64,000 nt of DNA from Hyphococcus luteus (GTDB lineage Bacteria > Pseudomonadota > Alphaproteobacteria > Caulobacterales > Parvularculaceae), in contig NZ_PJCH01000003.1 in the NCBI RefSeq assembly GCF_002943565.1, positions 132,001 to 196,000 of the forward strand, written 5' to 3'. Below the pieces are notes generated by a model. It had not been told where the DNA came from. It was given only the letters and a program-made list of their open reading frames with translations, and searched no databases. Position numbers and translations under genes: made by a program. This document shows, piece after piece, positions 22,728-38,654 of the stretch (its first letter is position 1; each line of letters opens with the position of its first letter).

Positions 22728-22742
22728 TTAATGAGCTGTTAA
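22728..22742 (-). promoter_or_regulatory. CtrA-type box upstream of fliO
   Basis: Reads TTAA-N7-TTAA (TTAATGAGCTGTTAA on the plus strand), an exact match to the full CtrA consensus. It overlaps the stop codon of the glycosyltransferase-deacetylase gene and lies 56 bp from the fliO start, the normal place for a -35-overlapping activator site; TATTTT a further 12 nt downstream could be the -10. CtrA is known to activate flagellar genes in Caulobacter and relatives; binding here is inferred. Confidence 0.55.
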
Positions 22743-24910
22743 GCCTGCTCCCCCGCGCCGTCATAAAGCGCGCGAAGGTCTTTAAAAGACACGATTTCGC
22801 CGCCCAGCGTTTCCCGGAACCAGGAGAGATAAGCGGCGGTTGTCGCGAGGATTTCATCCGCACCCGTCTCATCGCGCGCATAGGGGCTGGCGCCCGGCGT
22901 CAGCGACGTCGAATGCAGCGTGTAGGTTAAAACCGGCGCGCCGCCATCGATCACGGCTCTTGTCAGCGCCTGCAGATCTTCAAGACGTCCGCCTTCCGGA
23001 GACAGGCGCATGGGAATTTTGAAGACCGAAAACGGATCTTTTTTGTATGGCGCAAAGCCCGCGTCGCGCTTTTCCTGAGACAGAAAATAGCTTGTGCCGC
23101 GCAGCGCCCTGGCGCCCGTGACCGGCGTTGCAACAAGGCGCCGCCCGTCCGCTTCTGCAATAAACGGTTTGTTCGACATCGTTGAAAAATCGGGCCCGCC
23201 GCGCGATGAAAAATCGAAGGCGGCGCTGGGGCTGAAATCATAGCAAAGCCCAAACTCAGCCAGCAATTCGTAATCGCCGCTGCCGATCCCGTAACGCCCG
23301 GCCCGATGGGCGAGCGGTTTTTCGCTGAAGACATCTTCAAAAAGCCCCGCGAGGCTTTTCAGTTTTTCACGATAAGCCTGGCGCGGCAGGTTTTTCTGAA
23401 AGGAAAAATATTCGCCCGTAAAATTTCCCGGCGGCGTCGTCCATTGATGCAGATGCAGACCGAAATCGGCCACGCCCGCGCCGGCCATGCTTTGAAAACA
23501 GGGCGCGGCTCGTTCATCTTTCAAAATCGGCCAGGTGAGAAAATAAAGCGGCGCGGCGCCTTCCTCGCGGCAAAGGGCCTGGAAACGCTCGACGCCGTCC
23601 ATGGGACTGACCCGATAGTCGTCCCCGTCGAAACGGCGCCAGTCGAATTCCTCTTCCGTGTCCACCGTAACGATGAGACGCGGGCGCTTGTTATCTTCAT
23701 CAAGAACAACCGGCGACGTTTTGAGCGCCGAGGCGGCGCGCGATCTCTCTTCAAGCGCGCAGAAGATCGCCTGCATGCCGTCGGCGGTTTCCTCCCATGA
23801 CTGTTTTTCCGCGTAAGCGCGCGCCGCCTTGCGCCCTGACGGAGACGCAAGCAGATCCTTCACCGCTCCGGCGATGGCGCGCGGCGTTCTTTCCTTCGCC
23901 AGACGGCCCGCCTCCGGCGCGGCGATCACTTCGCTTGTTCCCCAGACATCGCTTGCAACGCAAGGGGTTCCGCAGGCCATGGCTTCGAGCAGCACATTCG
24001 GCCAGCCTTCCCGCGAAGACGCCAGCACCAGAATGTCAGCGGCGGAATAGATGCGCCTCAGATCGTCATGGTCCGCCTGCCCCAGAAACCGCACGCGCTC
24101 GGCGACGCCCGCCAGTCTTGCGCGCGCCTCCAGCATCTTGCGTTCCGGTCCCTCGCCGACGATCAACAGCGTCGCCGACGGCAAATCTTTCAGGGCGTCG
24201 ATAACGATCCCATGGCCTTTGCGTTCGATAAGCTGTCCGACGCTCGCCAGCACCAGCCCGTCGAGCCCCAGGACGCGGCGCTCCGCCTCCCGGTCGGCGG
24301 GCGAAAACTTTTCGAGATCGACGCCGTTGCGCAGAACGGTGATGTTTTCGGCGGGCGCGCCGAGCCTTGCGAGCTCCTGCTTCAAGGCGTCGGCGACCGT
24401 CATCACCGCATCGGCGCGCCAGGCGGCGTCGAGGATTTTCTTTCGCGGCCCTTCATAGTGAGGCAGGAGATTGACATCCGTGCCGCGCGCCGTGACAGCG
24501 AAAGGCTTTTCCAATTCGCGCGCGACGTCAGCCGCCGCGACGCCATCGGGATAAAAATAATGCGCGTCGATGAAGTCGAAATCCCAGCCCTCGGCGATCA
24601 GCCGCTTCGCCTCTTTGCGCAGGCAGCGCGCAAGCGCGACGGGCGCGGCCTGCATGCCGAGCTTTGGCGGAATGAAAAACCGCGGGTGAAAGACGTCAAC
24701 GCCGTGACGGGTTTCCCGGCGCGGCGCCCGGGCGTAAGCGCCGTAACGCCCGAAAAGCGGATGGGAAAACGGAAACCACGGGACCGGCGCGACGACTTTC
24801 ACCTCCGCGTCGTATTTCTTTCGATAGGCGCTGAGGCGATTTTCAACGAAGATCCCATGCGCAGGCGCGGCTGCGTTCGGAAAGAGCGTTGAAAAGAGAA
24901 GAATGCGCAT
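22739..24910 (-). CDS. Fusion: GT4 glycosyltransferase + WalW-like polysaccharide deacetylase
   Basis: 723 residues with two domains. Residues about 1-395 are a GT-B glycosyltransferase of family 4: N-terminal FSTLFPNAAAPAHGIFVENR, TARGTDVN, SVGQLIERKGHGIVIDAL, and the nucleotide-sugar binding PNVLLEAMACGTPCVASDV. After a short linker, residues about 408-715 form a NodB-like domain of the WalW type, opening with the metal site LIVTVDTEEEFDW and containing GLHLHQWTTPPG and AHRAGRYGIGSGDYELLAEF. It is divergent from the sugar transferase at 25193. The two activities usually sit on separate proteins; fusion suggests coupled sugar addition and deacetylation of the same polymer. There is no signal peptide, so it acts in the cytoplasm. 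Confidence 0.88.
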   Translation of the reverse strand: MRILLFSTLFPNAAAPAHGIFVENRLSAYRKKYDAEVKVVAPVPWFPFSHPLFGRYGAYARAPRRETRHGVDVFHPRFFIPPKLGMQAAPVALARCLRKEAKRLIAEGWDFDFIDAHYFYPDGVAAADVARELEKPFAVTARGTDVNLLPHYEGPRKKILDAAWRADAVMTVADALKQELARLGAPAENITVLRNGVDLEKFSPADREAERRVLGLDGLVLASVGQLIERKGHGIVIDALKDLPSATLLIVGEGPERKMLEARARLAGVAERVRFLGQADHDDLRRIYSAADILVLASSREGWPNVLLEAMACGTPCVASDVWGTSEVIAAPEAGRLAKERTPRAIAGAVKDLLASPSGRKAARAYAEKQSWEETADGMQAIFCALEERSRAASALKTSPVVLDEDNKRPRLIVTVDTEEEFDWRRFDGDDYRVSPMDGVERFQALCREEGAAPLYFLTWPILKDERAAPCFQSMAGAGVADFGLHLHQWTTPPGNFTGEYFSFQKNLPRQAYREKLKSLAGLFEDVFSEKPLAHRAGRYGIGSGDYELLAEFGLCYDFSPSAAFDFSSRGGPDFSTMSNKPFIAEADGRRLVATPVTGARALRGTSYFLSQEKRDAGFAPYKKDPFSVFKIPMRLSPEGGRLEDLQALTRAVIDGGAPVLTYTLHSTSLTPGASPYARDETGADEILATTAAYLSWFRETLGGEIVSFKDLRALYDGAGEQA

Positions 24911-25192
24911 GGCGGCGGCACCTTATCCTGCGAGGCTTTAAAAACCGCTTTAGCCCGAGCGGCTCTTCTGCGTTTCGTCCCGGCCAATCCCGAAACGGCA
25001 CAATCTTGAAAATAAGGCGCGCATTCACCGCTTGCCCTGCAACCCCAGGCGGAAACCCGCTCCATGGAGTCCCTTAACTTTTCGTTAGGCATGCATTGTG
25101 CGGGAAAGCCCCGTGAACGTCGCATTCCGGGACGGTCACGGCCCAGTTCGCAATAAAGGCCGCGCCTCCCGGCGGAATTTAAGGCACGGGAG
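24911..25192. other. Divergent intergenic region, polysaccharide locus
   Basis: 282 bp without a gene, holding promoters for the leftward glycosyltransferase-deacetylase and the rightward sugar transferase. The only motif I can read is TTAACTTTTCGTTAG (25074-25088), a one-mismatch CtrA-type box (TTAA-N7-TTAG) about 105 bp upstream of the sugar transferase. No RNA gene or strong hairpin is seen. Confidence 0.4.
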
Positions 25193-26020
25193 ATGTTTGC
25201 TCACTTCGCTTTTGCGCTTGGTCTGGCCGCCATACTGGCTGCTGGCGGCGCGCTCGCCTCCTCCCGGCTGGTTTTCCATCCGAAACCCCGCAAGGCCGGC
25301 GACCATCAGTTTTATCGCGACAGCGTCGGCCTGCTTGAACGGCCCGTGCCCACCGGCCCCCTCGAGGGCGCGGTCGATCTCGGGCGCGTCAGTCCCCGCG
25401 ACTATGAAACCGCAGCCCGAAAGATCACGGCGCCCGCCTCAAGCCGTCTCAAAAGATGTCTCGATATCGCTTTGAGTTTCGGTCTTGTTTTCTGTCTTTC
25501 GCCGCTGCTGGTCATGACCGTTCTGGCGATCAGGCTCGACAGTCCCGGCCCCGTTCTCTACCGCCAGCGCCGGGTCGGCTATGGCGGACGCGAATTCGAG
25601 GTCATTAAATTCCGCTCGATGTTCGTCGGATCGGAGCCGCACGGGCCGCAATACGCCGCCAGGAAAGATCCGCGGATCACCCGCGTGGGGCGCTTCATCC
25701 GGAAGTTCAGGATCGATGAAATTCCGCAAGCGATCAATGTGTTGCGCGGCGACATGAGCTTTGTGGGTCCGCGGCCGGAGCGCCCGGAATTCGTGGCGGC
25801 GCTGGAGCGCGAAATCCCCAATTATCACTGCCGGCATCTGGTCAAACCGGGGATCACCGGCTGGGCCCAGGTGAAATACGAATACGCCGCTTCCGTCGAA
25901 GGCGCGCGCACCAAGCTGCGCTACGATCTTTACTATATCCGCCATTTTTCCCCAGCTCTCGACCTTCTGATCGTCCTGATGACCGTGAGAGTGGCGCTTT
26001 TCGGGCTTGGCGGGCGCTAA
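25193..26020 (+). CDS. Undecaprenyl-phosphate sugar phosphotransferase (monotopic PGT)
   Basis: 275 residues. It starts the lipid-linked repeat unit by moving a sugar-1-phosphate to undecaprenyl phosphate at the inner membrane. The catalytic domain (about 84-270) opens with the re-entrant helix [20 protein letters not shown], then VIKFRSMFV, the catalytic dyad D175-E176 in [20 protein letters not shown] and [11 protein letters not shown] single N-terminal hydrophobic segment (2-22) replaces the four- or five-helix module found in the EpsB/WbaP group, so it is a shortened version. The start has AAGG about 9 nt upstream. It precedes the export-chain length operon by about 215 bp with its own promoter. 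Confidence 0.92.
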
Positions 26021-26113
26021 ACGCAGCCCTTAATCGCGACTCCGGTTTTGTCAGGAATCAGCCGACAGGAGCGGAAGCGAATTTCCGCGGGAAATCTTGT
26101 TGTTACGCGGGTT

Positions 26114-26131
26114 TGCACTTTGCGCAGTGCA
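26114..26131 (+). promoter_or_regulatory. Inverted repeat upstream of the sigma-54-type promoter
   Basis: TGCACT-TTGCGC-AGTGCA, six-base arms around six bases, ending 10 bp before the -24 element. It looks like a dimer binding site for a regulator. Enhancer-binding proteins usually bind farther upstream, so it could also be a repressor or co-regulator site; no partner gene is seen in the window. Confidence 0.4.
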
Positions 26132-26141
26132 GGGGGAGGCA

Positions 26142-26156
26142 TGGCAAAGATTTTGC
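26142..26156 (+). promoter_or_regulatory. Sigma-54 (-24/-12) promoter of the polysaccharide operon
   Basis: TGGCAAAGATTTTGC has GG and GC at the exact spacing of the sigma-54 consensus (TGGCACGNNNNTTGC), differing only at two weakly constrained positions after TGGCA. Transcription would begin near 26167, about 70 nt before the export-protein start. XrtA/PEP-CTERM polysaccharide loci are known to be tied to the PrsK-PrsR two-component pair, in which PrsR is a sigma-54 activator, so the site fits its context. Binding is inferred. Confidence 0.65.
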
Positions 26157-26235
26157 GTTGCCTTTAGACTGACATGGGATTTTGGGGGCCGTCGCGCCGG
26201 CCCGACGCTCACTTGGACGCCACAGGGATATGACC

Positions 26236-26880
26236 ATGATTAAGATTAACGACACGATCCGCGCCGCTGCGGCGCTCGCCGCCGCTTTGACGCTCGCCGC
26301 ATGCAACACGCTGGGGCTTGGCGGCGAGCAGCTTCAGGCTGCGCCGTCGACTGCTTCCGACGCCGCCCAGACGGCGCCGGATTATCTTATCGGACCGCTC
26401 GACCAGCTTGAAATTTTCGTCTGGCGCGCGCCGGAGCTTTCCACCAATGTCACCGTCCGCCCGGACGGACGGATCTCGACGCCGCTCGTCGAAGACATGG
26501 TCGCCGCCGGCAAAACGCCGTCGGCGCTTGCAAACGATCTTGAAGGCGTATTGCGCGAATATGTCCGCACGCCGGAAGTGACTGTCATCGTCAGCAACTT
26601 CTCATCGACCTATGACCAGCAAGTGCGTGTCCTCGGCGAGGCGCAAAAGCCGATCGCCCTGCCTTATCAGGCCGGCATGACGGTGCTTGACGTGATGGTC
26701 TCCGTCGGCGGGCTCACCGAATTCGCCGCCGGCAACCGCGCGGTGCTGATCCGCGGCCAGGGCGAGGACCGCCAGTCCTACCGCCTGCGTCTCAACGATC
26801 TCCTGCGCAAGGGCAACATCTCGGCGAATGTGCCGGTCCTGCCGGGCGATGTGATTTTGATCCCTGAAAGCGCGCTCTAA
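26236..26880 (+). CDS. Polysaccharide export lipoprotein, Wza/XrtA-system type
   Basis: 214 residues from ATG 26236, chosen because AGGG lies 8 nt upstream; ATG 26230 is two codons earlier. The signal ends in a lipobox (TLAAC, lipidated C23). The mature protein has the polysaccharide export N-terminal domain (DYLIGPLDQLEIFVWRAPEL, VRPDGRISTPLVEDMVAAGK) and one SLBB-type domain (VRVLGEAQKPIALPYQAGMT, VLPGDVILIPESAL). It should form the periplasmic/outer-membrane export channel. Short length without the long C-terminal helix agrees with the XrtA-associated export family. First gene of the run behind the sigma-54 site. Confidence 0.9.
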   Translation: MIKINDTIRAAAALAAALTLAACNTLGLGGEQLQAAPSTASDAAQTAPDYLIGPLDQLEIFVWRAPELSTNVTVRPDGRISTPLVEDMVAAGKTPSALANDLEGVLREYVRTPEVTVIVSNFSSTYDQQVRVLGEAQKPIALPYQAGMTVLDVMVSVGGLTEFAAGNRAVLIRGQGEDRQSYRLRLNDLLRKGNISANVPVLPGDVILIPESAL

Positions 26881-26914
26881 CGGGCGGCGCCTTCGGGTTC
26901 CGGGGGAAAGCGTA

Positions 26915-28456
26915 GTGTTCAAGTTCTCCGATCTGCCACAACCGGTTCTGCGCGGCCTTAACGGGCTCTGGCGCCGGCGCTGGCTTGTGATCTCCGTCGC
27001 ATGGGCTGCAGCGCTCGCCGGATGGCTGGCGGTGTGGCTCATCCCCGACAAATACGAGTCGCGCGCGCAGGTTTTCGTGCAGACGGAGACGATCCTCGAA
27101 CCCGTGCTCAACGGCTTTACGGCGCGCCCGGATTATTCCCGGCGCGTCGAAGTCATGCGCCTGCAGCTTCTGACCCGGCCGAATGTGGAGGAGATCATCC
27201 GCCGCGCCGGCCTCGACAAGACCATCGACGCGAAAAGCCCCATGGAGCGGCGCGTGAAGATGCAGAACATGGTCGACTGGGTGGCGGGACAGATCCAGAT
27301 CGAAAGCCCGCGGGAGATGTATTTCATCATCTCCTACAAAAACAGCGATCCGCAAATCGCCCGCGCCGTCGTCGACGCCGTGCTCAACATGCTGATCGAA
27401 CAGGATCTCGGCGCCAGCCTTTCCGAAAGCGAGGCCGCGCGCCGCCGGCTCGATCTGCAGGTCGAGCAATATGAAGAAAAACTCACCGCCAATGAAAACG
27501 CGGTCGCCGCCTTCCGGGCCGAACACGCCCGGGAACTGACGGCGAGCCAGGGTGCGCAGCGCCAGCGTGAGATGAAGGAAAACGAACTGGTGCGCGTCAG
27601 CGACGAGCTTGAGCGCACCAAGGGGCGCGTGCTGACGCTTCAAAACCTGATGTCGGCGACGCCGCGCCACGCTTCGGGCGGCGAGCTTGACCGCCTGAAA
27701 GTGGAGCTCGCGTCGCTGCGCAGCCAGTATGAAGAAAACCATCCGGACATCCGCGGCGTCAAAGCGCGCATCGAGGAACTCGAAAAAGCGGACGCCGCGC
27801 TTTCCGCCAATCCGGAATATGTGCGCCTCTCCTCCGAGCTGCGGGTCGCCCAGGATTCGGTGACGGCGCTCGAAGCGCGAGAGCAACGCCTGAAAGAAGA
27901 ACTCGACACGCTCGACTTCGCGGCGGGTCAGGCCCCGGCCGTAGAGGCGCAGCTGCGCCAGATCGAGCGCGAATACGAACAGACGCAAAAAACTTACGAA
28001 GAGCTGCTGGCGCGCCGCGACCGGCTGGACCTGACGCGCAATCTCGGCGCGGCGGGACGCGGCGTCGAATATCAGGTGTTCGAATGGCCGTCGGTGTCGC
28101 TGGCGCCCAGCGATCCGCCGCGCCTGCTGCTCATCCTCGGCGTCGCCCTTCTCGCCGCCGGCGCCGGCGCCGGCGTCGCCGTCGTCCTGACGCTGCTCGA
28201 CAAGAGCTACACCCAGGCCAGCGAACTGCAGACCGCATTCGGCCTGCCGGTGCTTGGCGCCATCAGCGAAACCCCGTCGGAAAGCGTTTTCGCCCTTCGC
28301 CGGCGCGATCACATGCGTCTCGCCATGGCCTCCGCCGGCTTTGTCGCCGTCGCCGTCCTTTACACCTATCTGACCGTATACCGCCTGCCCTCGGCGACGC
28401 CGGCGCCGGCGGAAAAATCGGCGCAGCTTTCCATTTCATATGAGGCGTCGTCATGA
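26915..28456 (+). CDS. Polysaccharide chain-length determinant (Wzz/XrtA-system type)
   Basis: 513 residues from GTG 26915, preceded by GGGGGAAAG. The N-terminal Wzz domain has a first transmembrane helix near 22-43 (WLVISVAWAAALAGWLAVWL); a long periplasmic coiled coil covers about 165-385 (EQYEEKLTANENAVAAFRAE, EYEQTQKTYEELLARRDRLD); a second helix is near 403-425 (LLLILGVALLAAGAGAGVAV) and an extra C-terminal hydrophobic helix near 470-490. It controls polymer length and couples with the tyrosine kinase encoded next, whose ATG overlaps its stop (ATGA). Layout matches the XrtA-system chain-length family rather than short Wzz. Confidence 0.9.
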   Translation: MFKFSDLPQPVLRGLNGLWRRRWLVISVAWAAALAGWLAVWLIPDKYESRAQVFVQTETILEPVLNGFTARPDYSRRVEVMRLQLLTRPNVEEIIRRAGLDKTIDAKSPMERRVKMQNMVDWVAGQIQIESPREMYFIISYKNSDPQIARAVVDAVLNMLIEQDLGASLSESEAARRRLDLQVEQYEEKLTANENAVAAFRAEHARELTASQGAQRQREMKENELVRVSDELERTKGRVLTLQNLMSATPRHASGGELDRLKVELASLRSQYEENHPDIRGVKARIEELEKADAALSANPEYVRLSSELRVAQDSVTALEAREQRLKEELDTLDFAAGQAPAVEAQLRQIEREYEQTQKTYEELLARRDRLDLTRNLGAAGRGVEYQVFEWPSVSLAPSDPPRLLLILGVALLAAGAGAGVAVVLTLLDKSYTQASELQTAFGLPVLGAISETPSESVFALRRRDHMRLAMASAGFVAVAVLYTYLTVYRLPSATPAPAEKSAQLSISYEASS

Positions 28457-29397
28457 GTTTGATCGAAAAAGCCGGCGCCACGGTCCTCAAAGGCTCCTTC
28501 GACAAGAAGGACGCGCCCAAAACCAAAAATAAGAAAAAGCCCGTCGCACTTGCAGCAGCCGCCGAAGCCGAAGCGCCTGCGCCGCCCGAACGCGAACCGT
28601 TCGATCTCGATTTCGCTGCGCTGTCGAAAGAAGGAATTTACAGTCCGGAAGACCGCTCGAGCCAGCTCGCGCTCGAATTGCGGGCGGTGAAGCGCCGCCT
28701 CCTGCGCCGCATCGGCTATCTGCGCGCATCGGCCGAACGCCAGGCGTTCCGCACGCCCGGCAAGCAGCGCAATCTCATTCTCGTCACCTCGACGCGGGCC
28801 GGCGAAGGCAAAACGTTCACCGCGATCAATCTCGCCCTCAGCCTTGCTTTCGAGGACCAGATCGAAACGCTCCTCGTCGACGCCGATCTTGCGCGCCCGA
28901 AAGTGCGCGAAAGGCTCGCCCTGCCCGCCGCGCCCGGCCTCGCCGACCGCCTTCTCGATCCCAGGCGCGATGTCGAAGCCATGGGCTGGCGGTCGAACGC
29001 CGCGCCGCTTAGCGTCCTGCCCGAAGGCGACCGGTTCGACCGTCCGGCGGACATCTTCGCGTCGCAAAAAGCGCAAGAGATGTGGACCGACATCGCCCGG
29101 GCCAACCCGAACCGTCTCGTCATCATCGATGCGCCGCCGGTGCTCGCCGCCACGGACGCCGTCATTCTCGCCAAATACGCCGACGAAATCGTCTTCGTCG
29201 TCGAAGCGAATTCGACGCCCGAAGCGGCGGTCGCAGCCGCCGTCGACGAGCTGATCGACATCAATCCGAATATCAGCCTGATGCTGAACCGCTGCCAGAT
29301 CGGCGCAGGCGGGGCGCATTACGGCTCTTACGAATATTATGACCGCAGCGAGGCCGCGCCAGCGTCCGCCGCAGCCACCCCCTCAAGCGAAGGATAA
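28453..29397 (+). CDS. Polysaccharide tyrosine autokinase (CpsD/XrtA-system type)
   Basis: 314-residue cytoplasmic BY-kinase. Walker A is STRAGEGKT (113-121), Walker A' is LLVDADLARP (140-149), Walker B is VIIDAPP (223-229). The C-terminal tyrosine cluster HYGSYEYYDRS (Y290, 293, 295, 296) is the autophosphorylation site. The N-terminal 60 residues are Lys/Ala/Pro-rich and disordered. It cycles between phosphorylated and bare forms to control polymerisation through the chain-length protein, whose gene it overlaps by 4 bp. The tyrosine cluster is shorter than in Wzc-type kinases. Confidence 0.92.
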   Translation: MSLIEKAGATVLKGSFDKKDAPKTKNKKKPVALAAAAEAEAPAPPEREPFDLDFAALSKEGIYSPEDRSSQLALELRAVKRRLLRRIGYLRASAERQAFRTPGKQRNLILVTSTRAGEGKTFTAINLALSLAFEDQIETLLVDADLARPKVRERLALPAAPGLADRLLDPRRDVEAMGWRSNAAPLSVLPEGDRFDRPADIFASQKAQEMWTDIARANPNRLVIIDAPPVLAATDAVILAKYADEIVFVVEANSTPEAAVAAAVDELIDINPNISLMLNRCQIGAGGAHYGSYEYYDRSEAAPASAAATPSSEG

Positions 29398-29401
29398 TCC
29401 C

Positions 29402-31093
29402 ATGGGGCAGCAACGCAAAAAGCCGAACAAGATGTCGCGCGTAAAGAAAACCTTGCTCGCTTCCGCCGCCACGGCCGGCTTCGCCGGCGCGGCGCTCGCG
29501 CAGGTGACCAATCCCACGGCGCCGCTGAAAATGCAGACCGATTATTTCGGCTATTCCGCCGGGGTTTCCGCGCGCGCCGGTTATTCGGACAATATCAATC
29601 TGCAACGCGGCGCGCTGAAAAAAGACGAGTTTTTCCTGTCAACGCTGTTTACCGGCGGCGCCATCGTTTCGACGCCGCGCGTGACGGGTCTTATCCTCGG
29701 CGATCTCGATTTTTCCTATCTCCTCAATCAGGGCGATTTTCGGGTCAGCCAGAATATCGCCGCCACGAGCACGTTTACGGCTGTCGACAACTGGCTCTAT
29801 TTCGATCTTTCCGGCTCTACAACGCGTCAGCTGGTCGGCGACAATGCGCGGTTCTCCGGCAATATCAACGCCGCCCGCAATCAGCAGGCCAATGTCCACA
29901 CCTATTCCGCCAGCCCCTATATCTTCCGTCAGAATTCCGATGAATCGACGACCGAACTGCGTTATCGCTATTCCCAGGTTTTCGTCGACGACCAAAAATC
30001 GCTCTCCTCGCTGCTTTTCGGCAGCTCCATTCAAGACTCCGTCACCCATGAAGCGCTGGCGCAATACGACACCGGGCGTAAATTCGACCAGCTGCACATT
30101 CGGCTGACCGCCTACGGCTCCGACACGACGGAAGACGGCGTGGCGCCGTTCCCCGATTTCGGCTACCGTCAGGGCTCATTGTCCGCGTCCGCGCAATATG
30201 CGCTGTCGAGCCGTTTCGCGCTTTCAGGCGGCGTCGGATATGACGAAATTGAAAACCAGGGCGCCTCCGCTTTGTTTTTCAGCGACAGCGACCTTTCGGG
30301 ATTCTTCTGGCGCGCGGGATTTTCCGCCCAGCCCGGCGCGCGATCCTCTATCCGTCTCGAATACGGCCAGCGTTACGGCGATGACTTCATCGATGCGGAT
30401 GCGCGCTACCAGATTTCCCGGCGCTTTCTTTTCACGGCTTCCGCAAGCCGTTCTTTCCGCACGCGCGCGCAATTCGCCACATCGAGATTCCGCTCGACCC
30501 AACGCGGCGCGCTCGAATTCGCCGACCGCCTTCGCGCCGGCGATGAGCTTGACGCACGCAGCGTCATCGAGGCGGCGAACTGGTACGCCAGGGGGCAATC
30601 GTCCGGCCTGTCGCAGACCAACGGCGTCACCGTTTCCAATAACGCTTCCGCCGGCCTTGTCGGCAGTTTCGACCGCACCGAGCTTTCCTTCAGAGGCTAT
30701 TATTCGGACGACGATTTCGGGTATCGCCAGGTCGAATCAATTGGCGGCGGCCTTGATCTGCGCCGCCGCGTCACCCGCAAGCTCACCGGCTATGGCTCGG
30801 TCACCTATCGCCGCATCGATACGGTTTTCGACCCCGCCACCTGCGAGGCGAACCCGCTTGTTTTCGGTTTCGACCCGACCGATCCGGCGTTCGACGCCAT
30901 GACAGACTGTGCGGATCTCGCCGCGAATAACGGCGTCACCAACACTGTCGTGGGCCGTCTCGGCGCGTCTTACCGGCTTTACGAAAACGCGTCCGTATTC
31001 GTCGAAGGCTCGCATACGGAACGTTTCGCGCCGAACCCCGATCTTGAATATGCGGAAAACAGCATCCTGGCCGGGATCACTCTGGATTTCTGA
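29402..31093 (+). CDS. Outer-membrane beta-barrel protein of the XrtA/PEP-CTERM polysaccharide system
   Basis: 563 residues from ATG 29402 (4 nt after the kinase stop). A basic start then a signal peptide (TLLASAATAGFAGAALAQ). The mature protein has amphipathic strands with aromatic girdles (GVSARAGYSDNINLQRGALK, LSFRGYYSDDDFGYRQVESI) and ends in a hydrophobic strand with C-terminal Phe (ENSILAGITLDF), the classic BAM signal. Fits the TIGR03016-type barrel found only beside XrtA-system genes. It is probably the outer-membrane port or anchor for the polymer. Two cysteines near residues 481 and 500 (CEANP, MTDCADL) could form an external disulfide. Confidence 0.85.
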   Translation: MGQQRKKPNKMSRVKKTLLASAATAGFAGAALAQVTNPTAPLKMQTDYFGYSAGVSARAGYSDNINLQRGALKKDEFFLSTLFTGGAIVSTPRVTGLILGDLDFSYLLNQGDFRVSQNIAATSTFTAVDNWLYFDLSGSTTRQLVGDNARFSGNINAARNQQANVHTYSASPYIFRQNSDESTTELRYRYSQVFVDDQKSLSSLLFGSSIQDSVTHEALAQYDTGRKFDQLHIRLTAYGSDTTEDGVAPFPDFGYRQGSLSASAQYALSSRFALSGGVGYDEIENQGASALFFSDSDLSGFFWRAGFSAQPGARSSIRLEYGQRYGDDFIDADARYQISRRFLFTASASRSFRTRAQFATSRFRSTQRGALEFADRLRAGDELDARSVIEAANWYARGQSSGLSQTNGVTVSNNASAGLVGSFDRTELSFRGYYSDDDFGYRQVESIGGGLDLRRRVTRKLTGYGSVTYRRIDTVFDPATCEANPLVFGFDPTDPAFDAMTDCADLAANNGVTNTVVGRLGASYRLYENASVFVEGSHTERFAPNPDLEYAENSILAGITLDF

Positions 31094-31094
31094 C

Positions 31095-32504
31095 ATGTAT
31101 GAAGAGTATTTCCGGCTGACTGACGCGCCGTTCCGGCTCAATCCGGACCCGCGCTTCTTTTACGGCAGCCGGAGCCACAACAAGGCGATGGCCTATCTTC
31201 ATTACGGATTGAAGCAGGCCGAAGGCTTTATCGTGATCACCGGGCCGGTCGGCGCCGGCAAATCGATGGTGATCGGCCATCTCCTCGACCAGCTCAACGC
31301 TTCGAATGTCGTCGCGGCGAATCTCCTGACGTCCAATATCGAACCGCAAGATCTTGTGAGCCAGATCCTGTCCGCCTTCCGCATCGAGCCGGAGGGCGAA
31401 GGCCGCGCCGGCGAAATCGAAGCGTTCGAGGATTATCTCTTCGACCAGCTCAATCGCGGGCGGCGCGTTCTCCTGATCATCGACGAAGCGCAGAACCTGC
31501 CCTTCAAGACGCTCGAAGAGCTGCGGATGCTGTCGAATATCGACTATGAAGGAACGCCGCTGTTTCAGGTTTTTCTGGTGGGCCAGCCGGAATTCCGCGC
31601 GATCATGGAAGCGCCGAATATGGAGCAGCTGCGCCAGCGCGTCATCGCTTCCTATCACCTCGAGCCGCTCACCGAAGAGGAGACCCGCGACTATATTCTT
31701 CACCGGCTCGCCGTCGCCGGCTGGCGCGAAGACCCGGCCTTCACCAAGGGCGCCTTCAAAGCGATCCATGAGCAGACGCACGGCCTGCCGCGCCGCATCA
31801 ACACGCTGTGCAACCGGTTGATGCTTTATTGCTCGCTGGAAGAAGCCCATGAAGTGACGGCCAAGGTCGTGGAAACGGTGAGCGCCGAGTTGCGGGACGA
31901 AAAGCTCGAAGCCCGCAAACCGGCCGACGCCATGCCGGCCGTCCCGCAGGTTCACAATGACGACGAGCCGGCTGCAAAAGCGCCGGCAAAGGAAGAAAAA
32001 GCGCCAGCGGCGGAAGAAGCCCCGGCCCACACGAAGCTCGCGGACGTGAAAGACGCCGTCGTCCTGTCGCTGGACGAAGCCCGGGAAAAGACGGGGGCAG
32101 AAGAACAAACGGCGCCGGAAGACGCTGCGGACGAAAAACCGAGGAGCGGCGTGGCGCTTTCCTCTTCTTTGAGCGTTCTCGACCGGCTGCGCTCAAAAAA
32201 GCCGGAAGACGAGCGCCAGGAAGCAACGCTCACCGACGTCGCCAGCGCGATCGCCGCCGCTTCCGCCGCGAACGAGACCGCCGAAGCCTCTTCGGACGCT
32301 GTCGAAGTCCCGCGAACGCCGCCCAAACGCAAGGGCCTGCGCGGCGCGCTTGATGAAGCCCGGGACGAGTTGAAACAGGCGAACGGCAATGTCGCGCGCC
32401 TTCTCGGCGCCGCGGAAAAAGCCCGCGCGCGCCGCGCGGAAATCGCGCAAAGCCTTTCCCGCGCGGAAAGCCTTCTGAACGAACTGCGCCGGGCGCAGGC
32501 CTGA
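31095..32504 (+). CDS. XrtA-system-associated AAA ATPase (ExeA/GspA-like) with long C-terminal tail
   Basis: 469 residues from ATG 31095, one nucleotide after the preceding stop. N-terminal MYEEYFRLTDAPFRLNPDPR is the ExeA-type opening. Walker A is GPVGAGKS (50-57), Walker B LLIIDEAQ (126-133), sensor region VGQPEFRAIM and GLPRRINTLCNRLML. The ATPase core ends near 285. About 180 further residues are Ala/Glu/Lys-rich and disordered, then a predicted coiled coil at the end (RARRAEIAQSLSRAESLLNE). The core matches TIGR03015-type proteins, which are normally shorter, so the tail is an addition. A role in assembling the export machinery is inferred. Confidence 0.88.
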   Translation: MYEEYFRLTDAPFRLNPDPRFFYGSRSHNKAMAYLHYGLKQAEGFIVITGPVGAGKSMVIGHLLDQLNASNVVAANLLTSNIEPQDLVSQILSAFRIEPEGEGRAGEIEAFEDYLFDQLNRGRRVLLIIDEAQNLPFKTLEELRMLSNIDYEGTPLFQVFLVGQPEFRAIMEAPNMEQLRQRVIASYHLEPLTEEETRDYILHRLAVAGWREDPAFTKGAFKAIHEQTHGLPRRINTLCNRLMLYCSLEEAHEVTAKVVETVSAELRDEKLEARKPADAMPAVPQVHNDDEPAAKAPAKEEKAPAAEEAPAHTKLADVKDAVVLSLDEAREKTGAEEQTAPEDAADEKPRSGVALSSSLSVLDRLRSKKPEDERQEATLTDVASAIAAASAANETAEASSDAVEVPRTPPKRKGLRGALDEARDELKQANGNVARLLGAAEKARARRAEIAQSLSRAESLLNELRRAQA

Positions 32505-32517
32505 TGCGCAAACGCCG

Positions 32518-33387
32518 ATGTGTGCGCAAAACGACATATCCCCCGCTGAAAACGGGCGCCGTTTCACCCTCTCGGTGGATGTAGAGGACTATTTTCAGGT
32601 CTGGGCGTTCTCCGATGTCGTTTCGCGGAACTCCTGGGACGGCTTTGCGCTGCGCGTCGGCGACAATACCCGCCGCTGTCTCGATCTTTTCGACGCACAT
32701 GACGCAAAGGCGACGTTCTTCACCCTCGGCTGGGTCGCAGAGCGCGATCCCGACCTCATCAAAGCCATCGTTTCACGGGGCCATGAGCTCGCGAGCCACG
32801 GCTATGACCACACGAAAGTCACGGCGCAGACGCGCGGCGAATTCCACGCCGACGTGATGAAAACCAAAAAGCTGCTCGAAGATATTGGCGGCGCAGACGT
32901 CAAGGGCTATCGCGCCGCCGGATTTTCCATCGGGCGCGACACGCCCTGGGCCCATGAGGCGCTGGCCGAGGCCGGCTATCTTTATTCCTCAAGCACGCAT
33001 CCGATCGCGCACGACCATTATGGCGACGCAAGCGCGCCGCAATCGCCTTATGAAACCGCGGGACTTATCGAGGCGCCGGTGGCGACGGCGAATCTCTTCG
33101 GCCGGCGCGTCAGCGCCGCCGGCGGCGGCTGGTTTCGCGCCGCGCCTTATGGATTTTCGAAAATGCTTCTGGAGAAAGCGTCGAAGACGTTGCAGGGGCC
33201 GGCCATTTTCTACTTCCACCCATGGGAAATCGACCCGGACCAGCCGCGCCTTAATCGCGCGGGGCTGAAATCGAAAGTCCGGCATTATCTCAATCTTTCG
33301 ACCATGGAGCGAAAGCTCTCGCGCCTTTTGTCGGACTTTTCCTGGGGGCGCATCGACGAGGCCTTGCAGCCGGGAGCCGCGTCATGA
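32518..33387 (+). CDS. XrtA-system polysaccharide deacetylase (NodB fold, DUF3473)
   Basis: 289 residues. The NodB catalytic core has D21 and D24 in LSVDVEDYFQVWAF and metal-binding H94 and H98 in HELASHGYDHTK. The motif VDVEDYFQ and the C-terminal IFYFHPWEIDPDQPRL with KVRHYLNLSTME identify the DUF3473/TIGR03006 subfamily linked to exosortase loci. It lacks a signal peptide, so it likely acts on lipid-linked intermediates in the cytoplasm. It should remove acetyl groups from N-acetylated sugars. The stop overlaps the FemAB start by 4 bp. Confidence 0.92.
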   Translation: MCAQNDISPAENGRRFTLSVDVEDYFQVWAFSDVVSRNSWDGFALRVGDNTRRCLDLFDAHDAKATFFTLGWVAERDPDLIKAIVSRGHELASHGYDHTKVTAQTRGEFHADVMKTKKLLEDIGGADVKGYRAAGFSIGRDTPWAHEALAEAGYLYSSSTHPIAHDHYGDASAPQSPYETAGLIEAPVATANLFGRRVSAAGGGWFRAAPYGFSKMLLEKASKTLQGPAIFYFHPWEIDPDQPRLNRAGLKSKVRHYLNLSTMERKLSRLLSDFSWGRIDEALQPGAAS

Positions 33388-34451
33388 CCGCCGCCCCCGC
33401 GCTCCGGTTTCCCTCTATCGAGGTCACGCACAACACATCTTGCGACCGCGCGCGCTGGGACGCGTATGTCCGCGCGCATCATGAAGGAACTTTCTTCCAT
33501 CTCATAGGCTGGGGGGAAGCGGCGAAACGCGCTTACGGCTATGACGCGCATTACCTCGCCGCCAAACGCGATGGCGGGCTCGCCGGCGTTTTGATGCTCA
33601 CCGAAGCGCGCACGCCGCTTCTCGGCGCCTCGCTTGTCGCAACGGCGTTTTCCGTCGGCGGCGGCCCTCTCGCAGATGACGAAGAGGCGCGCGATGCGCT
33701 TCTCGCCGCCGCCGCAGCGCTCGGCGCAGAAAAGCGCGTCAATTATGTCGAATGCCGCTCCGGCTTCGATGCGCCGGGCTGGGAAACGAAAACCGGCCTT
33801 CACGCCAGTTTCGAGGCGCCGCTCATCGCCGATGAACAGGAAGCCCTCGCCGCCATACCGAGGAAACGCCGCGCGGAAATCAGAAAGGCTGTAAAAACGG
33901 CGCAGAAAGGCGCGCTTTCGATCCGTCATGACGGCGGCGCAGATCTTTTTTACCGGCTTTATGCGCAGTCCCTGCATCGGCTCGGCACGCCGGTCTTTCC
34001 GAAACGCTTTCTCGATGCGCTGCTCGCCGAATTTCCGCAGGAAACAGAAATCTCGGTTGTCGAAGACAAAGGAAAGCCTGTCGCCGCGCTTCTCAGCTTT
34101 TATTTCAAGGATGCGGTCCTGCCCTATTATGTGGGCGCGGGCGATGACGCGCGGGCCTCCCGCGCTTTCGATTATCTTTACTGGTCGGTCATGCGCCGCG
34201 CCGCCGGCAAAGGCTTTACGCGTTTCGACTTCGGCCGCAGCAAGACCGGCAGCGGCGCTTATCTTTACAAAAAACTCTGGGGCTTCGAGCCGCGCCCGCT
34301 TTCCTATCAGGTGAAGCTGATCGGCGCGGACGAATTGCCGGATGTGAATGCGACGAACCCGAAATTCGCGCTCTTCTCAAAACTCTGGCCGCATCTGCCG
34401 CTCGGCGTTGCAAACCGGCTCGGCCCCGCGCTGGCGCCGAACTTCCCATGA
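33384..34451 (+). CDS. FemAB-like GNAT protein of the XrtA system
   Basis: 355 residues with two GNAT halves. Conserved features are GTFFHLIGWGEAAKRAYGYD near the N-terminus, IPRKRRAEIRKAVKTAQKGA, LHRLGTPVFPKRFLDALLAE and the C-terminal GFTRFDFGRSKTGSGAYLYK with KKLWGFEPRPLSYQ, which match TIGR03019-type FemAB relatives found in exosortase-linked loci. FemAB enzymes transfer amino acids from aminoacyl-tRNA; here the acceptor may be a sugar, which is inference. The gene is locked by 4-bp overlaps to the deacetylase before it and the glycosyltransferase after it. Confidence 0.88.
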   Translation: MTAAPALRFPSIEVTHNTSCDRARWDAYVRAHHEGTFFHLIGWGEAAKRAYGYDAHYLAAKRDGGLAGVLMLTEARTPLLGASLVATAFSVGGGPLADDEEARDALLAAAAALGAEKRVNYVECRSGFDAPGWETKTGLHASFEAPLIADEQEALAAIPRKRRAEIRKAVKTAQKGALSIRHDGGADLFYRLYAQSLHRLGTPVFPKRFLDALLAEFPQETEISVVEDKGKPVAALLSFYFKDAVLPYYVGAGDDARASRAFDYLYWSVMRRAAGKGFTRFDFGRSKTGSGAYLYKKLWGFEPRPLSYQVKLIGADELPDVNATNPKFALFSKLWPHLPLGVANRLGPALAPNFP

Positions 34452-35644
34452 AACCGGAAATTCTTTTTCTGGCGCATCGCATCCCCTATCCGCCGGACAA
34501 GGGAGACAAGATCCGATCATGGCGCATGCTGAAATTCCTGACCGAACGGTTCCGCGTGCATCTCGCCTGTTTCGCCGATGACAAGCGCGACCTCGTTCAC
34601 CGGGAATTTCTCGAAGGTCTTTGCGAAAGCGTAACGATCGTTCCGCTCGCCCCGAAGGCCGCGCGCCTGCGCAGCGCCAAAGGCTTTCTCACCGGCGAGC
34701 CCTTGAGCTTTCAGTATTTTCGCGACGCCCGGATGGCCAGGGCGGCGCGCAAGATCAGGCAAAAACCGTTGGCGGCGGAAATCGTCTTTTCCTCCTCCAT
34801 GGCGCCTTACATCGAAACCTCAGTGGAAGGCCGCAAACGCATTGTCGATTTCTGCGACGCCGACGCCGAAAAATGGCGCAGCTATGCGCAAGAGGCGAAA
34901 GGCCCGCTGGCGCTCCTCTATGCCCGCGAGGCGAAAACACTGGCGCGCAAGGAAACCGAGATCGCCAATTGGGCGGACGCCAGTTTTGCGATTACGGCTG
35001 ACGAAGCCGCGATCTTCAATGCGCGGCAAGGCATGACCAAAACCGTCGACTGGTTTTCAAACGGCGTCGATACGGATTTCCTCGACCCGCAGAGCGTCGC
35101 CCCATCCTCCGCGCCAGACTATGACTGCGTCTTTGTCGGCGCCATGGATTACCGCGCCAATGTGGAAGGCGTTCTTTGGTTCGTGAAAGAGGTCTGGCCG
35201 CTTGTGCGGTTTCAAAACCCGCAGGCAAGCTTCGCCATTGTCGGCGCCAATCCGGCGCCGGCTGTTCTCGCGCTTGACGACGAGAACGGCGTGACGGTGA
35301 CCGGCCGCGTCGGGGATGTGCGCCCCTGGCTCGCCGGGGCCAAACTCGCCGTCGCGCCCTTGCACGTCGCGCGCGGCATGCAGAACAAGGTGCTGGAAGC
35401 CATGGCCATGGGAAAAGCCGTCATCGCCTCGCCCGAAGCCATGACCGGCGTCGGCGCGCCGGAAGACGCGGCGGTAACCGCTGCGGCGCCCGAAGACATG
35501 GCGGCGGCAATTGACGGCCTGTTGAAGAATGAAGACAGACGCCGCGCGCTCGGCGATGCGGCGCGGCGTCATGTGCTCGAACATTATCAATGGGATGCGG
35601 CGTTCGATCGCTTCGAAAAAGCATTGAAAGCGCTTGGCCTTTAG
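34448..35644 (+). CDS. XrtA-system glycosyltransferase (TIGR03087/stp1 type)
   Basis: 398-residue GT-B glycosyltransferase. The opening EILFLAHRIPYPPDKGDKIR is the signature of the TIGR03087 family. Other landmarks: VDFCDADAEKWRSYA, TVDWFSNGVDTDFLDP, DCVFVGAMDYRANVEGVLWF and the C-terminal sugar-nucleotide site MQNKVLEAMAMGKAVIASPE. It is the last gene of the operon, 4 bp overlapped with FemAB. In typical XrtA loci the next gene is the exosortase, followed by an amidotransferase and a second glycosyltransferase; here a palindromic repeat and the converging clpB operon come next instead. Confidence 0.92.
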   Translation: MKPEILFLAHRIPYPPDKGDKIRSWRMLKFLTERFRVHLACFADDKRDLVHREFLEGLCESVTIVPLAPKAARLRSAKGFLTGEPLSFQYFRDARMARAARKIRQKPLAAEIVFSSSMAPYIETSVEGRKRIVDFCDADAEKWRSYAQEAKGPLALLYAREAKTLARKETEIANWADASFAITADEAAIFNARQGMTKTVDWFSNGVDTDFLDPQSVAPSSAPDYDCVFVGAMDYRANVEGVLWFVKEVWPLVRFQNPQASFAIVGANPAPAVLALDDENGVTVTGRVGDVRPWLAGAKLAVAPLHVARGMQNKVLEAMAMGKAVIASPEAMTGVGAPEDAAVTAAAPEDMAAAIDGLLKNEDRRRALGDAARRHVLEHYQWDAAFDRFEKALKALGL

Positions 35645-35675
35645 AGCACCGGCTTTAGAAGCCTTCCACCCGGTC

Positions 35676-35732
35676 TTCCCCGCGAAAGCGGGAATCCAGA
35701 ACCACAATCCGGGATCCCGGCTTTCGCCGGGA
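35676..35732. repeat. Pair of REP-like hairpins
   Basis: Two inverted palindromes between converging genes: TTCCCCGC-GAAA-GCGGGAA (35676-35694, one unpaired C) and TCCCGGC-TTTC-GCCGGGA (35715-35732), which overlaps a perfect CCGGGATCCCGG (35709-35720). The loops GAAA and TTTC are complementary, so this is a head-to-head pair like the one near 12 kb, but with a different stem sequence. Nothing else is seen in 35645-35773. Confidence 0.75.
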
Positions 35733-35773
35733 TGAACGGCAACAAGGACCGCAATGATTGCGGGCAGACCGCT

Positions 35774-35977
35774 CTATTTTTTCCGCTCTTCCGCGAGCAC
35801 TTTTTTCACATAGGCGTCGATATCGACATCGCCCTTAACGCGGCCCTTAATCTGCTCGCGCAGTTTCGAGGGCAGTTGCGCGGGATCGGCCGATCCCGCG
35901 CTTTTGATGGTGGCGCGAATGAGGTCTTTTAAATCCTCATCGTCATCCGGTTTCCATGTCGGCTTTTTGTCCGTCAT
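35774..35977 (-). CDS. Small charged protein, 67 residues
   Basis: MTDKKPTWKPDDDEDLKDLI, then a helical, lysine-rich body (KLREQIKGRVKGDVDIDAYV) ending AEERKK. Acidic N-terminus, basic C-terminus, no hydrophobic helix; probably a soluble cytoplasmic helix bundle. It starts 10 bp after the clpB stop and is likely co-transcribed with it, so it may belong to the heat-shock response. No family recognised with confidence. Confidence 0.6.
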   Translation of the reverse strand: MTDKKPTWKPDDDEDLKDLIRATIKSAGSADPAQLPSKLREQIKGRVKGDVDIDAYVKKVLAEERKK

Positions 35978-35987
35978 GGGCCATCCT

Positions 35988-38654
<2,667 letters not shown>

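Follow-up and report, generated by a model that had tools for sequence, protein, structure and literature searches.

The window examined here, i.e., the whole stretch of 64,000 nucleotides at positions 132,001 to 196,000 of contig NZ_PJCH01000003.1 of Hyphococcus luteus (Parvularculaceae; G000:C10:132001-196000, in a source genome of 16 contigs that is 99.17% complete), carries the polysaccharide gene set that accompanies exosortase A (XrtA) of the PEP-CTERM sorting system in other Proteobacteria. The evidence assembled below makes it quite probable that the XrtA system of this genome is distributed over three places, namely the polymer genes in the window, the exosortase on contig C9, and a cargo gene on contig C1, and that the cargo would gain its PEP-CTERM tail by a −1 ribosomal frameshift. 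It is also likely, with slightly less assurance, that this frameshift determines whether the principal, perhaps the sole, substrate of exosortase A in the Parvularculaceae acquires its tail. The split locus is ordinary in its parts, a familiar gene set that has been relocated, and notable as a family-wide trait, whereas the frameshift-made cargo is likely to be the new point. The genes, the split and its conservation, the conserved frame break with its signals, and the co-occurrence of the cargo gene with XrtA are all read from the sequences. Both the sharing of the split by the whole family and the apparent need of the likely substrate for a frameshift lay beyond what the original prediction, made from the letters of the window, could see.

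A probable cargo gene split over two frames

The candidate cargo gene is located outside the window (G000:C1:204224-204813; L226:6225-6814) and encodes a proline-rich protein, the N-terminal half and the PEP-CTERM tail of which are found in different frames. The first frame is conserved and comprises ~70–85 codons with a hydrophobic N-terminus and an invariant GDIRNDIV..NCGCCG core; the proline-rich PEP-CTERM part lies in the −1 frame relative to it. Judged by eye, the hydrophobic segment and the tail form one chain only upon a frame shift. The motif P-E-P occurs in 28 of the 29 −1 frames that could be read to their stop codon, and a further one (L207) is cut short by the end of its contig. 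With a profile built on the first frame, the gene is detected in 31 of 60 relatives, weakly in one of them (G030), and in a single genome of a 387-genome class sample, the window's own, when the best ≤15 candidates per genome are scored. Its surroundings recur as well: all 31 loci examined, L225 among them, have a Phage_lysozyme-family gene close by, and mgtE is present in 22 of the 31 short loci.

Protein databases hold the two halves separately. Among 123 first-frame proteins, at least 116 of which came from the best 120 of 283 matches in a 5.8-billion-protein database, 122 end in Phe, and a read-through query of the protein database returned seven proteins, four second halves and three first halves, none of them fused. 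Likewise, the annotation of the complete Hyphococcus flavus genome includes the first half alone, labelled a hypothetical protein (P0016). On the frameshift reading, the cargo would escape annotation pipelines since neither half by itself resembles a sorted protein.

The frame break itself is uniform. The first frame ends in CTTTTT followed by TAG, TGA or TAA in 30/30 loci, and conserved coding picks up again in frame −1. In the remainder of 29 such frames (codons counted without L217), NCT represents 47 of 445 NCN codons and TTT 23 of 45 Phe codons, so that both fixed T's are unusual. For pairs at least 75% identical, differences at the three codon positions amount to 0.125/0.107/0.382 before the junction in frame 0 and to 0.104/0.076/0.28 after it in frame −1, the pattern of protein coding in frame 0 upstream and in frame −1 downstream. 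A Shine–Dalgarno (SD)-like site of −7 kcal/mol or better is present upstream in 28 of the 30 loci, compared with 0.8% of background 7-mers; its spacer measures 13 nucleotides in 24/30 loci, and 27 of the 28 sites of this strength lie at 10–14 nucleotides. In a passage of PMC5009743, −1 shifts are associated with an SD-like site 9–14 nucleotides upstream, and part of PMC4066793 places U_UU.U among the more shift-prone tetramers in E. coli.

Downstream, a stem starts 6 nucleotides after U_UUU, with 94.8% of its cells paired and four pairs changed on both sides; none of 500 shuffles scored as high, and slid versions of the stem reached at most 58.8% pairing. This count was made on 22 of the 30 loci, since L204, L206, L209, L214, L215, L216, L217 and L221 were left out as near-copies by eye, although L209 is no close copy upstream, its SD-like site lying 3 nucleotides nearer; aligning all 30 loci yields an identical outer stem. 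Folding z-scores average −3.26 over bases +4 to +64 (40 simple shuffles per sequence) but −1.15 over 0 to 60 and −1.26 over −30 to 60. An Rfam scan of the cargo region gave nothing near a gathering score. With a slippery run, an upstream SD-like site and a downstream stem all present, the junction looks like a −1 frameshift signal.

Exosortases, tails and co-occurrence

The original prediction had described the locus as lacking its exosortase, which does not hold for the genome as a whole, and had offered as one option that the enzyme is encoded elsewhere, which proved right. XrtA is found at G000:C9:431498-432250, with TIGR03109 scores of 213.4 bits in the genome search and 211.3 bits as a protein, a narrow margin over the cut-off of 208. 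It carries a fused EpsI domain (TIGR02914, 68.9 bits; cut-off 42.8) and adjoins an amidotransferase, the best match of which is TIGR03108 (726 bits, below the cut-off of 816.9). Two further exosortases are present, namely XrtD on C16 (493.5 bits; cut-off 400) and an XrtE-type exosortase/protease fusion on C12 (TIGR04162, 270.9 bits; cut-off 150; L006:9242-10987). The residues Cys219, Arg264 and His285 are identical in 75/75 aligned exosortases. In a tree, which like the alignment comprised XrtA and XrtD-like rows only (rows from within L153-L194 skipped as duplicates, hits below 61 bits left out), the XrtA sequences of the Parvularculaceae (26 rows) come together in a single group (97/92) placed within XrtA rows linked to the polymer set, and XrtD is separate from the XrtA rows (100/98).

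Candidate PEP-CTERM tails, likewise located outside the window, number 25 in this genome at E ≤ 1. Of these, 24 lack P-E-P and are mostly VPLPA-like, the type after which XrtD is named, and the sole P-E-P tail (L026) belongs to the small proline-rich protein on C1. XrtD (L004, G000:C16:68000-87999), which is flanked by its own homologues of the chain-length protein, kinase and ATPase, is probably the partner of the many VPLPA-like tails. The idea that many tails of this genome are XrtA cargo was rejected, since the 24 tails that were read (23 plus L018) are all without P-E-P and the 25th, L026, is the cargo gene. Three relatives that showed one exosortase each, XrtA (G016, G021 and G023), gave one, one and no hits in the tail search; the single hits of G016 and G021 are the cargo gene, and G023 has the cargo gene with a tail below threshold. 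Other P-E-P tails were observed in genomes with further exosortases (L186 in G015 and L188 in G456); the G015 tail shares its contig with an exosortase ~6 kb away. L165 and L177 of G456 are not among the tails that were resolved on reading.

Across 36 genomes of the family, the cargo gene and XrtA occur together in 28, XrtA occurs alone in two (G019, G034), the gene alone in two (G005, G015), and neither in four (G002, G028, G030, G033). XrtA was counted when over the cut-off (27 of 36 genomes, G000 included) or close to it with support from tree or score (G022, 205.3; G029, 184.0; G035, 202.0), and G030 was counted as lacking the cargo gene because its match is weak, in-frame and tail-less. 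Among the 23 genomes at least 90% complete, 19 have both, four have neither, and none is discordant. Shared ancestry inflates this agreement, though the four negatives fall in four genera. The G030 match (L225:1641-2783), in a genome without XrtA, is a single-frame protein of 380 amino acids, proline-rich and without a PEP tail, encoded between mgtE and the lysozyme-family gene. It was considered as an in-frame form of the cargo and set aside, as the resemblance to the family is confined to its first third (32.6 bits), a hint and no proof.

A displaced half of the XrtA system

The XrtA-type accessory set occupies positions 26182–35644 of the window in the expected order (Table 1). All eight open reading frames named in the original prediction are present in the order it recognized as typical of exosortase A loci; six exceed their NCBIfam cut-offs, and the kinase and the barrel score below theirs with these families still as best match. 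This agreement with XrtA-system families is far beyond chance. The span that had been proposed, 22739..35644, contains this set and also takes in a minus-strand glycosyltransferase and a sugar-phosphate transferase that precede it. In most Parvularculaceae loci whose left flank is long enough, a glycosyltransferase of this kind occupies the corresponding position. More than 300 residues of the window protein beyond the GT4 match (after ~386) match no NCBIfam or Pfam model. The run does end at 35644 with inverted repeats and a converging clpB, as had been noted. In the genome-wide profile searches, no exosortase and no PEP-CTERM match at E ≤ 1 fell within the window, in agreement with the earlier reading of its frames, and the position after the TIGR03087 gene, which is the xrtA site in other Proteobacteria, is without an exosortase here. 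Thus, the window set is the displaced half of an XrtA system, not a standard XrtA locus.

Table 1. Features of the polysaccharide locus, in window coordinates.
Feature	Position	Strand	Evidence and remarks
GT4 glycosyltransferase, 723 amino acids	22739..24910	-	divergent, left edge of locus; NCBIfam/Pfam
Polyprenyl glycosylphosphotransferase (first sugar transfer)	25193..26020	+	TIGR03025, 300 bits (cut-off 295.55); PF02397
Polysaccharide export protein	26182..26880	+	TIGR03027, 229.5 bits (cut-off 180)
Chain-length determinant	26915..28456	+	TIGR03007, 328.4 bits (cut-off 278.85)
Tyrosine autokinase	28453..29397	+	best family TIGR03018, 171.9 bits, below cut-off 230.65
Outer-membrane barrel	29339..31093	+	TIGR03016, 89.5 bits, just under cut-off 90.85
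System ATPase	30909..32504	+	TIGR03015, 340.6 bits (cut-off 324.5); match begins at residue 63, so true start probably further in
Polysaccharide deacetylase with DUF3473	32518..33387	+	TIGR03006, 378 bits (cut-off 276.2)
FemAB-like protein	33384..34451	+	TIGR03019, 346.7 bits (cut-off 260.35)
Glycosyltransferase, last gene of set	34448..35644	+	TIGR03087, 479.2 bits (cut-off 316.65)
Imperfect inverted repeat, 35670-35697/35712-35739	35670..35739	.	28-nucleotide arms, 82%
Perfect 12+12 palindrome, then TTTT	35878..35901	+	terminator-like
ClpB, convergent neighbour closing the locus, outside the system	35988..38654	-	TIGR03346, 1410.9 bits (cut-off 1232.1)

The extent of this displacement was examined in the best 80 loci of a deacetylase scan of genome contigs, 28 of which were assigned to the Parvularculaceae by title, similarity and a shared XrtA group, some titles giving only Alphaproteobacteria. 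None of these 28 loci contains an exosortase, although the sequence beyond the set extends for 2 kb or more in 25 of them and for 4 kb or more in 20. Of the other 52 loci, 40 include one, and where 2 kb or more is available (42 loci) it lies within 3 kb in 37, further off in one, and is missing in four (L069, L103, L108 and L110). In L108 (Sphingomonas sp. SRS2) the TIGR03087-type gene is followed by an amidotransferase with no exosortase between them, the sole TIGR03109 match of 131.8 bits being elsewhere, and in L069 (gammaproteobacterium BB36) XrtA seems to lie on the contig of the set, ~40 kb off.

In the genome of the window, xrtA and the polymer set are at least ~220 kb apart, as calculated from contig ends, and in a relative assembled as one contig (G004) the distance from xrtA to the ATPase of the set is ~662 kb round the circle. 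Among the 30 other XrtA-bearing genomes of the class sample, all Alphaproteobacteria, the deacetylase is found within 8 kb in 25 and on another contig in four, and the remaining one has no deacetylase match at E ≤ 1e-40. Haft et al. (PMC1569441) state, in one part of the paper, that epsH nearly always occurs among exopolysaccharide genes; the Parvularculaceae are a clear family-wide exception to this linkage. Since the XrtA rows of the family form one group nested among linked ones, the linked state is probably the older, and the genes probably parted in an ancestor of the family. This split corrects the usual expectation of finding xrtA among its polysaccharide genes.

The second option raised at the outset, polymer machinery working without protein sorting, is wrong for the genome of the window and seems real in a relative. 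Aquisalinus luteolus NH6-79 (L058/L145; G033/G464; completeness 100) carries the polymer set in full but gives no TIGR03109 match, no match to the broad TIGR04178 at E ≤ 0.1, no PEP-CTERM match at E ≤ 0.2 and no match to the cargo gene; it seems to be a natural example of polymer machinery unaccompanied by sorting. Two other genomes, G030/G468 (L063) and G466 (L061), have the last genes of the set and only a distant exosortase (109.5 and 106.8 bits, respectively). In the class sample, four of the 38 genomes over the deacetylase cut-off (G170, G178, G253 and G323) are without a TIGR03109 match at E ≤ 1e-20. In G002, which is without XrtA, the 20 kb surrounding the ATPase (L146) show no match to the deacetylase, to FemAB or to TIGR03087.

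Proposed mechanism, alternatives and comparison with known systems

The proposed division of labour is as follows. The window set would make the polymer, and XrtA on C9, with its EpsI domain and beside the amidotransferase, would be the sorting enzyme, the probable main cargo of which is the C1 protein, of ~196 residues, N-terminally anchored, proline-rich and ending in the PEP-CTERM tail. Ribosomes would read a 74-codon frame ending in UCU UUU UAG, where the SD-like site 13 nucleotides upstream and the stem-loop 6 nucleotides downstream would make a fraction of them slip one base back on U_UUU and proceed in the −1 frame through the proline-rich region to the tail. The unshifted default product would be a short membrane-anchored peptide that XrtA could not sort, in contrast to the sortable shifted product. 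Finally, XrtA may cut off the tail of the long form at the membrane, and the freed protein would then reach the cell surface, presumably together with the polymer or next to it. Ribosomal slippage and its rate, cleavage of the cargo by XrtA, its release and its link to the polymer are all inferred, the steps after polymer synthesis following the established model for this family.

If this mechanism is correct, the frameshift rate would set the share of protein delivered to the surface. A real frameshift would represent a new use of recoding, choosing between the unsorted and the sorted form of one protein, and would provide XrtA with a small, defined and family-specific cargo, so that the long-standing question of how exosortase A acts on its substrate and relates to the polymer could be tested on a single gene in harmless, cultivable species, Hyphococcus flavus for instance. 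In the library searched, no paper brought together PEP-CTERM and frameshifting or exosortase and programmed frameshifting, the one that combined PEP-CTERM with recoding is unrelated to judge by its listing, and none dealt with exosortase in Parvularcula, with the main text of PMC3711429 mentioning neither in a term search.

Several observations weigh against this proposal. The SD-like site is weak in L201 (−4.4) and L218 (−5.9), and the best site of L222 is 21 nucleotides away. The outer four pairs of the stem are invariant and, thus, uninformative, and the stem region is itself coding. Moreover, a U_UUU followed immediately by a stop codon is not one of the bacterial shift sites that have received most study. 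The tail of the window's genome scores low with TIGR02595 (15.2 bits, or 16 with its neighbours, for a cut-off of 16, and 11.9 in a scan of the open reading frame of 176 amino acids), where those of relatives reach 16 to 21.9 bits. One of the 29 tails reads A-E-P (L199), and one of the 123 database proteins ends in FQ instead of F (P0069). G022 has another P-E-P tail (L181), ~4 kb from an XrtE-like gene. Finally, the four discordant genomes of the co-occurrence count fall among the 13 less complete ones, at 76–89% completeness.

Other explanations concern either the partner of the polymer set or the frame break. That the exosortase was lost and the polymer machinery of this genome works without protein sorting would fit the absence of an exosortase from the window and the condition of Aquisalinus luteolus, which has the full set with no detectable exosortase, tail or cargo gene, but the three types of exosortase and 25 candidate tails found in G000 refute it for this genome, and it is given very little probability. 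XrtD as the functional partner of the window set, to which the 24 of 25 tails without P-E-P lend some appeal, given that most are of the type XrtD is named for, is still improbable: XrtD has chain-length, kinase and ATPase homologues of its own alongside, the window genes score best against XrtA-system models, and G016, G021 and G023, each showing XrtA as its one exosortase, nevertheless have the ATPase of the set.

The break could also separate two genes, with the PEP-CTERM half started alone or by re-initiation after the first stop. An ATG, GTG or TTG does occur within 40 codons upstream in the −1 frame in 17/30 loci, four database proteins are such second-half calls (P0121-P0124), and the junction codon TTG could act as a start where the stop is TGA. 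However, in 13/30 loci the open −1 frame offers no such codon over the 40 codons before the junction; eight of them (L195, L199, L202, L210, L219, L220, L222 and L223) also have TTA at the junction and lack a start among the 20 codons that follow. A PEP-CTERM protein needs an N-terminal membrane segment, which by eye the second half lacks. Moreover, it is at the junction that the −1 frame starts to show conserved coding, and re-initiation leaves the fixed T run and the covarying stem unexplained, which makes separate genes quite unlikely. Slippage of RNA polymerase on the T run is slightly less probable again; one inserted U would yield the same protein and the run is fixed in 30/30 loci, but five T are short for such slippage, and an SD-like site at −1 shift spacing and a downstream stem would have no role. 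A decayed or mis-sequenced gene, which might explain why annotation pipelines call just one half or the other, is hardly credible with a break at the same base in 30/30 assemblies and protein-like conservation on both sides in different frames. The −1 ribosomal frameshift is the preferred reading of the junction.

The system can be compared with four that are known. The XrtA (EpsH)/PEP-CTERM loci of Proteobacteria have the same accessory set and order, the same XrtA family with an EpsI domain and the same type of amidotransferase, but in the Parvularculaceae the set has neither xrtA nor the amidotransferase next to it. The XrtD/VPLPA-CTERM system on C16 is alike in joining an exosortase with an EpsI domain to chain-length, kinase and ATPase homologues and differs in the separate position of XrtD in the tree and in tails without P-E-P. 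Programmed −1 frameshifting in dnaX, cdd and insertion sequence (IS) elements shares with the cargo gene the slippery run, the upstream SD-like site and the downstream stem; in the cargo gene, unlike in these cases, the stop directly follows the slip codon, and what would be gained is a protein-sorting tail. The +1 frameshift of prfB (release factor 2), as presented in a portion of PMC5009743, is alike in shifting at a stop codon with an internal SD-like stimulator, whereas the proposed shift in the cargo gene goes in the opposite direction and at a variable stop (TAG, TGA or TAA), prfB having an SD spacing of 3 nucleotides and shifting at CUU UGA.

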